A stretch of 64,000 bases of DNA from Candidatus Poribacteria bacterium (GTDB lineage Bacteria; Poribacteria; WGA-4E; WGA-3G), in contig JAGFCA010000020.1 of assembly GCA_022394755.1 (NCBI GenBank), forward strand, positions 1-64,000, read 5' to 3'. Position 1 is the stretch's first letter; each line of letters begins with the position of its first letter. Below the pieces are notes generated by a model. The model saw only the letters and a list, made by a program, of their open reading frames with translations. It was not told the origin of the DNA and made no database searches. Both the position numbers and the translations under genes were made by a program. Below, one piece after another: positions 2,555-63,143 of the stretch.

Positions 2555-5407
2555 ATGAAAGTGCTTTCTATGTTGCTGTTGCTTGGGTTAGGGTTGATAA
2601 TTGCTTTTATTGCTGTTGCTCAAACTGGTGAAGGGATTGTCGAAATTACGGGTTTTGTAATAGATGGTGAGACGGAACTTCCAATACCAGATGTAATAAT
2701 CAAAATTGTAGAAACGGATATTTCAGCTAAGAGTGATGAAAACGGAGAGTTTTCTATAAAACTACCTGCAGACACGTATTCTGTGCAGGTTTCTGCACCG
2801 TTCTACAATACATTCATACTTACTGATTATAAGGTGCCAGTTGAAGGAAATACAGAAGAATTAAGGGTAGTTCTTGAACCGCAAGTTGTGAAATTAGATT
2901 CTATCAATATGAAGGTTCGATTAAGCCAATCTGGAGAACGTGGTTTACTTGAGAGACGGATGCGGAGTTCACGTATTGCGGACAGTATTAGTACGGAGGA
3001 GATAAGCAAATTACCTGATTCATCTGCAGCGCAAGCCATCAAACGTGTGACAGGAGTGAGTATTGTTGGTGGCAAGTATGTGTTTGTACGAGGATTGGGA
3101 GAACGTTATAGCAATACGCTTCTGAACAATGTTGAGATACCGAGTCCTGAACCGAATCGTAGGGTTGTTCCGATGGATATTTTTCCAGCAAGTTTATTGG
3201 CAAGTCTACAAACTGTAAAGACCTTCACACCTGATCAACCGGGAGGATTTGCTGGTGGTTCTGTTCAGGTATTTACGAAAGATTTTCCTGAAGCATTGAT
3301 GATGTCTCTTTCTCTATCCACGGGATATAATACTCAAACCACTGGGGTGGACGGATTGACGTATCCTGGGGGTAGTTTAGATTTCTTAGGTTTTGACGAC
3401 GGCACACGTGAATTACCTGAGTTGATAGTAAACAAAGCAGATGAAATTCCGATTCGTGAACGTGGTCGTTTTTCCAAGTTCGGATTTACACCTACAGAGA
3501 TCCAGGAGTTTGGTCGTGAATTTTCAAATGTATGGACTCCTGAACGGCAATCCATTCCGATTAATCAAGGTTATAAATTTAGTCTTGGTAATAGCAGCAA
3601 ATTATTTGGTAAAGAATTCGGTTACCTCGGTGTCATTTCTTACGGGAATAGTCATTCCTACAATACCCAAGTCCGTAAAGCCTTCCGAATAGGATTAAAC
3701 GAGACGCTTTCGCCAGTTACAGACTATGCGATTGAAGAGAGTGGTAATGAAGTGGATTGGGGGAGTGTCTTAAATGTGAGTTTGCGTTTTTCACCCAAAC
3801 ACTTGATAAGTTTGCGTACACTTACAACCCATGCTGCAGAAGATCAGACGCGTACATGGGAAGGATTTAATTCTGATAGGAATACGGATTTACGAAGTAC
3901 ACGACTCCAATATGTTGAACGTCAACTATTTTCTGGACAATTAGCAGGTAATCATGGATTTAATTTTGGTGAACCGGCACAGACGGATACATCAGTAGAA
4001 GATGACTCTGAATCTGTTGACATAATAGAGGAAAGATCGGATTTATCTATGGAGTGGCGTTTGACTTATTCCCGTGCTGCCCGAGATGAACCTGATACTC
4101 GAGAAACAATCTATGAGGATATAGGGGATGGAACATATACCTTCAGAGATGTTACGCATAGTGGTAGTCGTTTTTTCTTTGATCTTGAAGATGATGAATA
4201 TAATGCCCGTGTAGATTTTTCGATGCCAGTTAAGAAGAGCGGAATGGTTAAATTGGGAGGTTTGGTTCGTGATAGAGCTCGAACATTTGATGCCCGTCGT
4301 TTCAGATTCTTACCATCAGATAATGTAGATTCGAAAGTTGATTTGTCATCTTCACCGGAAACGCTTTTTAAATCCGATAATATTGTTCCTCGTGTATTTG
4401 AGTTAAGAGAGTCTACTCTTGCTACAGATAATTATCTTGCTAACCATAATGTATATTCAGGTTACTTTATGTTTGATGTGCCATTTGGTTTAAAATGGCA
4501 TTTGATGACAGGATTAAGGTTAGAATCTTCGAATCAGGTTGTAACCACATACGATCCGTTTTCACCAGTGTTGAAACCTATTTTGTCGGATTTAGAAACC
4601 CTTGATCTCCTCCCTGGTCTGAACCTTATCTACCGTTTGACAGAACGTATGAATTTGCGTTTTGCTGTTTCTCGTACAGTAACGCGTCCAGATTTTCGTG
4701 AACTTGCTCCATTTGAATTTACGGATTTTGTTGGAGGAAGAACGATATTGGGAAATCCTAATTTGGAAAGGACTCTGATTAACAATTACGATTTACGATG
4801 GGAGGTATTTCCGAATACAGGTGGTGGTGTGTTTGCTATCAGTGCGTTTTATAAACGATTTCAAAACCCGATTGAACAGATCATACAACCGCAAGCTGAA
4901 GTACGTATAACCTACGAAAATGCTGAAGCTGCCAACAATTATGGAATAGAAATTGAAGCGCGTCAGAATTTGAGCATTATCTCCCCCAATTTGAGGGCGT
5001 TTTCAATCAATACAAACGCGGCCTTTATTTCTTCCAGAGTTGTACTTCCTGATGATGTAGGTGTTCAGACCTCCTCAGAACGTGCGTTGCAGGGACAGTG
5101 TCCATATATTATAAATTTGTCAATAGGATATGACAACCCAAACTGGGATCTATCAAGTTCGGTTGCTTATAATATCTATGGGCGTAGACTTTCTGATGTG
5201 GGAAATCACGGTGCACCTGATGTATTTGAACAACCCCGTGGAGAATTGGATTTTAGCTTCAGTCGAGGAGTCGCAGGAGCGTATAAATTTAGTTTTTCAG
5301 CCAAGAATTTACTTGATCCGGAGGTTGCATTCAAACAAGGTGATGAGTCATCGGTAAGTTATAAAATGGGTAGATCTTTCTCATTTGGAATCAGTTATGA
5401 CCTATAA
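2555..5407 (+). CDS. TonB-dependent receptor with N-terminal carboxypeptidase-regulatory-like domain
   Basis: A 950-residue outer-membrane receptor. Order: signal peptide (residues 1-24), a carboxypeptidase-regulatory-like beta-sandwich (about 28-110, beginning VEITGFVIDGE), a plug domain (about 120-250, with VRGLGERYSN near residue 178), and a long beta-barrel ending in an aromatic-rich strand (FSFGISYDL). The ATG at 2555 is chosen because GAGAGGAAGC sits just upstream and a clean signal peptide follows. An in-frame TTG at 2465 and ATGs at 2471 and 2519 would only extend the basic N-terminus. The next three genes run the same way, ending in a TonB gene, so this receptor is probably energised by that TonB. 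The substrate is unknown. Confidence 0.93.
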   Translation: MKVLSMLLLLGLGLIIAFIAVAQTGEGIVEITGFVIDGETELPIPDVIIKIVETDISAKSDENGEFSIKLPADTYSVQVSAPFYNTFILTDYKVPVEGNTEELRVVLEPQVVKLDSINMKVRLSQSGERGLLERRMRSSRIADSISTEEISKLPDSSAAQAIKRVTGVSIVGGKYVFVRGLGERYSNTLLNNVEIPSPEPNRRVVPMDIFPASLLASLQTVKTFTPDQPGGFAGGSVQVFTKDFPEALMMSLSLSTGYNTQTTGVDGLTYPGGSLDFLGFDDGTRELPELIVNKADEIPIRERGRFSKFGFTPTEIQEFGREFSNVWTPERQSIPINQGYKFSLGNSSKLFGKEFGYLGVISYGNSHSYNTQVRKAFRIGLNETLSPVTDYAIEESGNEVDWGSVLNVSLRFSPKHLISLRTLTTHAAEDQTRTWEGFNSDRNTDLRSTRLQYVERQLFSGQLAGNHGFNFGEPAQTDTSVEDDSESVDIIEERSDLSMEWRLTYSRAARDEPDTRETIYEDIGDGTYTFRDVTHSGSRFFFDLEDDEYNARVDFSMPVKKSGMVKLGGLVRDRARTFDARRFRFLPSDNVDSKVDLSSSPETLFKSDNIVPRVFELRESTLATDNYLANHNVYSGYFMFDVPFGLKWHLMTGLRLESSNQVVTTYDPFSPVLKPILSDLETLDLLPGLNLIYRLTERMNLRFAVSRTVTRPDFRELAPFEFTDFVGGRTILGNPNLERTLINNYDLRWEVFPNTGGGVFAISAFYKRFQNPIEQIIQPQAEVRITYENAEAANNYGIEIEARQNLSIISPNLRAFSINTNAAFISSRVVLPDDVGVQTSSERALQGQCPYIINLSIGYDNPNWDLSSSVAYNIYGRRLSDVGNHGAPDVFEQPRGELDFSFSRGVAGAYKFSFSAKNLLDPEVAFKQGDESSVSYKMGRSFSFGISYDL

Positions 5408-11422: not shown

Positions 11423-12499
11423 TTAGGGATTCTTTTCAGCGTCTAATTGCCTTTTTTGCCATCCGTAATCAACATTCCCAGTATAGAATTTATCTGGATG
11501 TTCAACAGCCCATATCTGCTTGTGTATAATCCAGTTTTTCGGATCAAGAGCTAAAGCTTTCCGCCATTCAACGATTGCTTCAGACTTTTTTCCTATCTCT
11601 AACAAAAGAATACCTAACTTGAACCGTGCATTTGCCTCAACGATGTTCGGACTTTGAGATTTATCAGTAGGTGTAATGTTTTGGAGAAGCGTAGTGTTAT
11701 AGGTAGGATCATATAACCATTTTTCAAGCATCTCAACCGTCTCTTTATTATCTACATTAATATTGAAAGGCGGTTTAACTAAGCGTCCCACCTCATCAAT
11801 CATAATGCCGTAAGGAATTGCCTTAAGATTGTACATACTTCCCAACACATTTTCAGCATCAACGAGAGTAACGAATTCTGCGGATGCCTTATCATGCCAC
11901 GGTTTTACGACTGACGCACCCTGTGCATCAATTGCAATTGAGACAATGTTAATCTTTTCACTGTGTTTCTCATAGAATTTCTGCCATCCAGGCAGTTGTT
12001 CACGACATCCTCACCAAGAACCCCATATATACAGAAGCGTTTTCTTTCCACGAAAATCTTGTAGGCGTACAGGTATATCATTCAGATTTGGTAATGTAAA
12101 ACTCGTTGCAAGTTGTCTCGGCTGTATGATCTCTATTTTGTCCTTTGAATATCTATATATCCCATATCCGAAAGGTTTGGTGATCTGTTCAAGTTTCGTG
12201 TAATTCTCGCCATCAACATGAAACACATCTGTATTCAATTGTAATGGGACACACAATTCAGAATCTCCTGTTCCGCATATTACCAGCATATTCTGCTCTT
12301 CTTCGGATTTTACAGTTAATCCGAGTTTTTGACAGATTGGGTTTAATGGCACTAACCATTGCTTATCTTTCAAGATAGGAGGAGAAGAGAATTCGATTAC
12401 CTGATTATCAATTGAGATTATTAACTTTCTCATAGATTCAGCATTACTTATTAGACTGATAGATATAATCAGTATAGAAGGGAGAATCAACTTTCTCAT
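11423..12499 (-). CDS. Thioredoxin/TlpA-like selenoprotein with Cu-amine-oxidase-N-like and TPR-like regions
   Basis: One 358-codon frame with an internal TGA at 12013-12011 (codon 163), read here as selenocysteine. Upstream: signal peptide (about 1-21), a copper-amine-oxidase N-terminal-like domain (about 25-120; IEFSSPPILKDKQWLVPL), then the redoxin start FTLPNLNDIPVRLQDFRGK. The active site reads LLYIWGSW, U, GCREQLPGWQKF, where TlpA/ResA proteins have a W-C-x-x-C-R-E-x-L-P pattern. The spacing is one residue short (U-G-C instead of C-x-x-C). After the stop the frame stays open through a redoxin fold and a helical TPR-like tail (EAIVEWRKALALDPKNW). A hairpin follows the UGA. The ATG overlaps the cytochrome stop (ATGA). 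The alternative is a nonsense mutation in a Cys gene; the conserved flanks argue against it. Confidence 0.8.
11981..11995 (-). promoter_or_regulatory. Putative bacterial SECIS hairpin of the thioredoxin-like selenoprotein
   Basis: On the minus strand CTGCC, loop TGGAT, GGCAG form a perfect 5-bp stem. Its loop starts about 23 nt after the first base of the UGA. An outer GAA/TTC pairing extends it past an internal loop. Bacterial SECIS elements are short stem-loops just after the UGA with G-containing apical loops that bind SelB. Position and shape fit. Confidence 0.6.
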
Positions 12500-12864
12500 A
12501 GAGTTTTTTTCTTACGGTGTTTCGCGTCGTATACTAAGAATTGTATAATCTTTTCAGCTGTTTTCGGATTAAGTCCAGATCCGGGTTTCCGTCTCATCTT
12601 GTGAACATACTCTCTCCATTCTTCTGGAGGGAAAGACGAATTTATGGGACGCGCGACGGTATGACAACGACTGCATTTGTTGGTAAAAAGTTGGTATAGA
12701 GATTGCATCTCCTCTGGATAGGCAGAAACGTCAATAAAATTAGGACCGTCATCAGCTGGAAATGATTTTGGTGCAGTTTGAGGAGCACGTATTGAAAAAT
12801 ACATCCCAATTGCAACCAACAGGATAACACCAACCACTGTAATCCAAACAATTGCTTGCTGCAT
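12496..12864 (-). CDS. Membrane-anchored monohaem c-type cytochrome
   Basis: A 122-residue protein with an N-terminal transmembrane anchor (about residues 5-26, VWITVVGVILLVAIGMYF) and one haem c motif, CSRCH (about residue 64). The helix after it, FPPEEWREYVHKMRRKPG, supplies Met and is followed by SGLNPKTAEKIIQFL, typical of small class I-like cytochromes. Its stop codon overlaps the start of the selenoprotein gene (ATGA), so the two are translationally coupled. An exported redox pair is likely: the cytochrome could hand electrons to or from the thioredoxin-like protein, or both could serve cytochrome maturation. The exact partner is inference. Confidence 0.8.
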   Translation of the reverse strand: MQQAIVWITVVGVILLVAIGMYFSIRAPQTAPKSFPADDGPNFIDVSAYPEEMQSLYQLFTNKCSRCHTVARPINSSFPPEEWREYVHKMRRKPGSGLNPKTAEKIIQFLVYDAKHRKKKTL

Positions 12865-62096: not shown

Positions 62097-63143
62097 ATGA
62101 CAAACCAAAAGGTTCGATTAACTGCAACAGTAAAATGTGCTGGCTGAGCATCTAAGCTTGCTCCGGGAGAGCTTGAACATATCTTAGATAACTTGCCGAA
62201 ATCAACAGACCCAAATTTACTTGTAGGAACAGAGACATCTGATGATGCTGGTATCTATCGTCTTTCAGGTGATCTTGCATTAGTTAATACAGTAGATTAT
62301 TTCACACCTATAGTTGATGACCCCTATACATTTGGAGCTGTAGCAGCAACTAATTCCTTAAGCGATGTGTATAGTATGGGAGGTAAACCGAAAACAGCAT
62401 TAAATATTACCTGTTGGCCCAAAGCTGATCTCGAATTATCAATCCTCGGTGAAATCATCAAAGGGGGTGCGGATAAAGTCGTAGAATCAGGTGCTGTTCT
62501 TATCGGTGGACATACTGTAGATTCACCAGAATTGATGTATGGATTAGCAGTTACAGGGATCGTTCATCCTGAGAAATATATAAAAAACTATGGAGCACAA
62601 CCGGGAGATGTCTTAATACTAACGAAGAATCTTGGGGTCGGTATACTAACAACAGGGTTAAAATTTGACAAAATTAGCGATAAAATTTTACCTCAAGTTG
62701 TTGAATCTATGACAAGATTAAACGCTTCGGCTTCAGAGGTTATGTTGAAGTATAATGCCACCGCTTGTACAGATGTAACGGGGTATGGTCTACTTGGCCA
62801 TGGCTCTGAAATGGCATCAGGAAATGATATGGGTCTAATGATTAACAGTAAATCTGTTCCATTTTTCGCAGATGCTCCATCTCTTGTTGCACAAGATACA
62901 TACACCCAAGCGTATCTGGCAAATACGGCATTTCTATCTGATAAGGTGACATTTGAGTCAACAGTAACTGAAGAGATGCGGCATATTATGATGGAAGCAG
63001 AAACATCTGGCGGACTTCTTTTTGCTCTTCCTTCTCAGAATGCGGACTCTGCTATAGAAGAACTACATTCTGGTAATTGTCCAGAAGCGGCAATTATTGG
63101 AGAGGTAGTAAATTCTGATAGTGCTCACATTCAGGTGTATTAA
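62097..63143 (+). CDS. selD: Selenophosphate synthetase with catalytic selenocysteine
   Basis: A 348-codon frame with an in-frame TGA at 62145-62147 (codon 17). It starts MTNQKVRLTATVKCAG, U, ASKLAPGELEHIL, exactly the N-terminal catalytic loop of SelD, where Cys or Sec is found, followed by a conserved Lys (here three residues on). Further signatures: TSDDAGIY (metal), VNTVDYFTPIVDDPYTFG, NSLSDVYSMGG, IGGHTVDSPE and EAETSGGLLFALPS. The enzyme makes selenophosphate from selenide and ATP for selenocysteine and selenouridine. A gene call ignoring UGA would start at TTG 62193 and lose the catalytic loop. No strong ribosome site precedes the ATG. Confidence 0.93.
62154..62174 (+). promoter_or_regulatory. 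Putative bacterial SECIS hairpin of selD
   Basis: AAGCT (62154-62158) pairs with AGCTT (62170-62174); inside, after a bulged TG, CTC pairs with GAG around a CGG loop. The apex lies about 19 nt after the first base of the UGA. A 5' bulge with U and a G-containing apical loop match known bacterial SECIS features. Confidence 0.6.

Follow-up and report, generated by a model that had tools for sequence, protein, structure and literature searches.

Selenoproteins that combine a Redoxin/TlpA-type domain (pfam00578, cd02966) with a Sec-Gly-Cys motif have been listed since 2008, when a 'Prx-like (UGC-containing)' type was described from GOS data with 46 sequences and 855 Cys homologues (PMC2398784). 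Two other lists name them: PMC9312934 has 'UGC-containing Prx-like protein', PMC13188914 'UGC-containing TlpA disulfide reductase family protein', with MDE0950781.1 as an example. In view of the 855 Cys homologues of the 2008 catalogue, which may be pfam00578 proteins in general, one should hesitate to call the wider family Sec-only. Closer to the protein reported here is NCBIfam NF041054.1 (WAxxUGC_long, 'ResA-like WAxxUGC motif-containing protein'), which was matched by all 43 diverse family members scanned (E <= 1e-20), almost end to end by two members from the Poribacteria phylum. The ResA/TlpA/StoA/DsbE thiol-disulfide oxidoreductases, finally, have the thioredoxin fold, a CxxC active site and a conserved proline past it; characteristic of ResA/TlpA is the reduction of disulfides in apocytochrome c or a copper chaperone, for which the window offers a neighbouring cytochrome gene.

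We analysed a window of 64,000 nucleotides from a Candidatus Poribacteria bacterium (assembly GCA_022394755.1, contig JAGFCA010000020.1), in which a minus-strand gene at 11423..12499 encodes a protein of this kind, 358 aa long when an in-frame UGA is read as Sec. The original prediction, that no described selenoprotein family matches it, is not supported, in view of the listed UGC-containing Prx-like/TlpA proteins and of NF041054, its best match. With the former it shares a pfam00578/TlpA-like domain carrying U-G-C, domain and motif being the features compared; a U-A-C variant, with Ala for Gly, can occur in Poribacterial copies. With NF041054 it shares the motif region, but members of the Poribacterial subfamily have WGSWU[GA]C in place of WAxxUGC, and the window's protein (P0001), a clear match, scored 141.6 bits against a cut-off of 300, which was exceeded in 0 of 85 genomes. 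Compared with ResA and its relatives, it keeps the fold, with a TM-score to ResA of up to 0.84, and the conserved proline, whereas the CxxC is replaced by UxC (here U-G-C) and a beta domain at the N-terminus and a TPR-like tail are added. It is therefore a well-supported selenoprotein in a new subfamily of a kind already catalogued; new are the subfamily in Poribacteria, its link with a gene for a c-type cytochrome and the evidence from covariation. A literature search for papers naming both Poribacteria and 'selenoprotein' found none, the search term being this word and not 'selenocysteine'. Reading frame, conservation, SECIS element, Sec machinery and predicted fold, all obtained by computation, make it highly probable that the gene encodes a genuine bacterial selenoprotein.

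Gene, domains and predicted fold

The frame runs from 12499 to 11423 on the minus strand, ends with TAA at 11425-11423 and has a TGA at 12013-12011 as its sole interruption; sequence and translation confirm the original description of two minus-strand open frames, in one frame, parted by this TGA alone. With table 11, ORFs are called at 12011-12499 and, from an internal GTG, at 11423-11848, so that annotation splits the gene in two, which the Sec reading mends. The TGA is codon 163 (12011..12013), and the read-through product carries U163 within IWGSW-U-GCREQLPGWQ. Residues 1-22 (12434..12499) form a probable N-terminal signal peptide or membrane anchor, read by eye from the hydrophobic MRKLILPSILIISISLISNAES and modelled with low confidence.

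A copper-amine-oxidase-N-like domain, a redoxin domain and a TPR-like tail had been proposed, and each was found by Pfam, in agreement with the model. Cu_amine_oxidN1 (PF07833) matches residues 30-100 (E 1.1e-6), within a domain at residues 27-125 (12125..12421, minus strand, as for the other domains) that is beta-rich in the model. AhpC-TSA and Redoxin match residues 129-242 (E 1.3e-14 and 5e-13), within a Redoxin/TlpA-ResA-like thioredoxin domain at residues 129-247 (11759..12115) that holds U163-G164-C165 and the conserved Pro229. TPR_2 matches residues 289-322 with E 8.8e-5, below its own gathering score, within a helical tail at residues 284-358 (11426..11650) ending in a KQIW...HPDKF...VDYGWQ signature.

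The AlphaFold model, built from a 43-sequence alignment with Sec modelled as Cys, reached a mean pLDDT of 91.5 and places the beta-rich part (27-125), the thioredoxin domain and the helical tail in this order, with an active-site helix (164-179) that starts directly after U163. The best matches among solved structures were the Geobacter thioredoxin 3kcm and ResA, with TM-scores up to 0.84 by target length, and the thioredoxin domain is confidently predicted as TlpA/ResA-like. Invariant over the 43 sequences are W159, W162, U163, C165, R166 and P229 and, in the tail, K327, Q328, W330, P335, F338, D344 and W347. Pfam, model and fold matches thus support what had been read from the sequence, namely that UGA encodes a Sec in a TlpA/ResA-like domain, at the first position of its active site, in a U-x-C motif one residue shorter than C-x-x-C.

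Catalysis and cellular location, as we infer them, would probably be those of an exported TlpA/ResA-like thiol-disulfide oxidoreductase with Sec163-Gly-Cys165 as its redox pair, and our best guess is a selenol-disulfide exchange of the ResA type, taking place in the periplasm. A substrate disulfide or an oxidised thiol is most likely attacked by the selenolate, which stands directly ahead of helix 164-179, and Cys165 would resolve the intermediate as an internal selenenylsulfide. Substrate or partner would probably be held by the beta domain at the N-terminus and by the TPR-like tail. A selenoprotein that is instead peroxidase-like, of the AhpC/TSA type, would leave the Sec claim untouched and change the mechanism; AhpC-TSA is indeed the top Pfam domain, and the type was named Prx-like in the 2008 catalogue (PMC2398784). 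We regard this as unlikely, though worth keeping in mind, as the top sequence and fold matches are TlpA/ResA-type thiol-disulfide oxidoreductases and the Sec-x-Cys pair occupies the position of the thioredoxin CxxC.

The UGA codon, its SECIS hairpin and the Sec machinery

By protein search a match was found in 61 of 85 Poribacteria genomes, and 59 of these 61 have a homologue with one in-frame TGA. The two remaining matches do not bear on the site: one (G038) is a 97-residue N-terminal fragment that ends before it, the other (G026) a 177-residue distant redoxin with 34% identity. Wherever a fetched locus had a clear homologue, TGA stood at the same position, in the motif W[AG]SW-U-[GAR]-C-R. 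A codon alignment of 59 distinct genes had TGA at the site in every gene and TAA, TAG or a sense codon in none; these genes were gathered by a motif that itself contains TGA, and the count free of this bias, from the protein search, gives the same picture. Such uniformity is beyond chance, and homologues with a stop or a random residue at the site, named beforehand as the pattern that would speak against Sec, are not what was found. In one Poribacteria MAG (L084, about 4107-5175) the gene appears frameshifted past the active site, and G035 shows two overlapping pieces; this is probably an assembly error.

Within the genus, pooled NG86 estimates of dN/dS were 0.20 before the UGA and 0.066 after it; both halves are under purifying selection. 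Synonymous divergence, measured in windows of eight codons, has a median of 0.68 and drops to its lowest values in the gene, 0.31-0.43, in the windows that start at codons 162-169, precisely the place required for a SECIS element. The copy in our window diverges faster than those of its genus mates (64.7% identity versus 78.1%), a gap that is far smaller for the neighbouring transketolase, PhyH and UPF0261 genes; its active-site motif and hairpin are intact.

The bSECIS hairpin (11981..11995, minus strand) begins 15 nt past the UGA, with arms CUGCC (11995-11991) and GGCAG (11985-11981) around the apical loop UGGAU (11990-11986). The bSECIS model asks for a loop of 3-9 nt, a stem of 4-16 bp, a G in the first two loop positions, a UGA-to-loop distance of 16-37 nt and an MFE <= -7.5 (PMC13188914). 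The hairpin agrees with it in all respects: its loop has 5 nt with G in second position, its stem 5 bp, the spacing is 20 nt, and the energy is -11.9 kcal/mol for the 46-nt stretch from the UGA. This stretch, of which the hairpin is the core, gave z -2.25, and when longer stretches were folded the z-score was not significant; the case for the hairpin is thus made by comparison and not by energy. Rfam found no element in the window, and covariation shows the SECIS instead.

None of the five stem pairs is broken in any of the 79 distinct sequences. At the first of these pairs C-G gives way to T-A through joint synonymous switches, Leu CTG to TTG and Gln CAG to CAA, and on a 59-sequence protein tree this coupled change occurred at least 4 separate times. 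The intermediate TTG/CAG, which makes a wobble pair, occurs in one Bacillales type; the mismatching CTG/CAA was seen in none of the 79 sequences. Within the loop, the Pro and Gly codons end in complementary bases in all 41 sequences whose Pro codon does not end in A, and a final A of the Pro codon can pair instead with the following U; for comparable codon pairs at other places of these genes, 182 of 479 cases were complementary. These counts come from related sequences and are not independent, although the same states recur in distant lineages.

The Sec machinery, whose presence in the genome had been set as a check, is complete: tRNA-Sec (selC, 78.5 bits) adjoins selB (373 bits) on contig C203, selA (607 bits) lies on contig C60, and selD is in the window itself (62097..63143, plus strand; TIGR00476, 361.2 bits), all over cut-off. 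Like our gene, selD contains an in-frame TGA (62145-62147, codon 17), and standard annotation would therefore truncate it; the motif around this UGA is KCAG-U-ASKL. SelB is over cut-off in 55 of the 59 UGA-bearing Poribacteria, the other four being MAGs 73-83% complete. As selB is over cut-off in 76 of 85 Poribacteria, so nearly all of them, the co-occurrence is weak evidence. The four MAGs without SelB over cut-off and the faster divergence of the window's copy are points against a selenoprotein. By the reading we prefer, SelB and Sec-tRNA would decode the UGA at codon 163, aided by the hairpin directly downstream.

The UGA might also be read as another amino acid, through a genome-wide code change or unprogrammed readthrough. 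Nothing specific favours this, and it appears very improbable, since TGA ends other genes in the window, such as the cytochrome gene discussed below (stop at 12498-12496), since the genome has the whole Sec machinery and the SECIS shows covariation, and since the codon stands where the motif has its first redox residue. A true stop, leaving a pseudogene or two separate proteins, would agree with table 11 ending there and with the faster evolution of the window's copy, and is still less credible against a UGA fixed in 59 of 59 genes and never TAA or TAG, a better conserved half after it, a redox motif that spans it and the SECIS covariation, so that, on selection and UGA conservation, we rejected both the pseudogene and the split gene.

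Relatives in other phyla and the cytochrome gene

In an alignment-based search, strong scores of about 150 bits or more came from Bacillales (about 31 matches), Armatimonadota (10 genomes) and KSB1 (one genome). All these strong matches bear the in-frame TGA, the position of which was checked in fetched loci, and among the strong matches in the Poribacteria, Bacillales, Armatimonadota and KSB1 groups searched there was no Cys version. Weaker matches, at about 90-110 bits, mostly lack the TGA and look like ordinary ResA-type proteins; the one that was read (L151) has WCPPC. In a sample of 399 genomes from across Bacillota, the genome already known was recovered, and the sole other match was a weak one with CxxC. 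No relative was found on plasmids by tblastn, nor in a scan of viral contigs with a pattern that demanded Cys codons and so was blind to the UGA form. As to the machinery, SelB is over cut-off in the Armatimonadia and Melghiribacillus carriers, and the KSB1 carrier gave no SelB match over cut-off. Conservation of the subfamily extends from Poribacteria to more distant relatives in three other phyla.

The Bacillales form is shorter, about 260 aa, with its UGA (L122-L136) and different neighbours, and apparently has no signal peptide, its start lacking a signal-like segment. The two Bacillales forms that were read (L122 and L123) end in an extra CGPxGC motif. Two copies were seen in G137, and a second, weaker UGA-bearing match each in G241, G283 and G405.

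In the window, a gene for a membrane-anchored monoheme c-type cytochrome-like protein with a CxxCH haem motif (CSRCH) lies upstream (12496..12864, minus strand) and shares 4 nt (ATGA) with the start of the selenoprotein gene. This overlap is common to Poribacteria, and by BLAST the gene is kept in 24 of the 29 Poribacteria loci examined; its product matched no Pfam family at E 0.001. Genes for a transketolase and a TPR protein lie farther upstream. The cytochrome gene is not adjacent in the distant lineages; the link is therefore lineage-specific, and the ResA-like role an inferred one. In Poribacteria the cytochrome would be the likely partner of the selenoprotein, which might, for example, keep the CxxCH thiols reduced for haem attachment; we propose this role, suggested by the neighbourhood only, as a tentative one.

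In its widest form, the proposal is an obligate-selenium U-x-C oxidoreductase family with a KQIW-type TPR tail, never Cys, patchily distributed in four or more phyla, with an exported form in Poribacteria and an apparently cytoplasmic one in Bacillales, and serving a dedicated c-type cytochrome in Poribacteria; we hold this whole picture to be possible, with more doubt than confidence. The locus adds a conserved selenoprotein to Poribacteria and, in a family where Cys seems unable to take the place of Sec, turns the advantage of Sec over Cys into a testable question.
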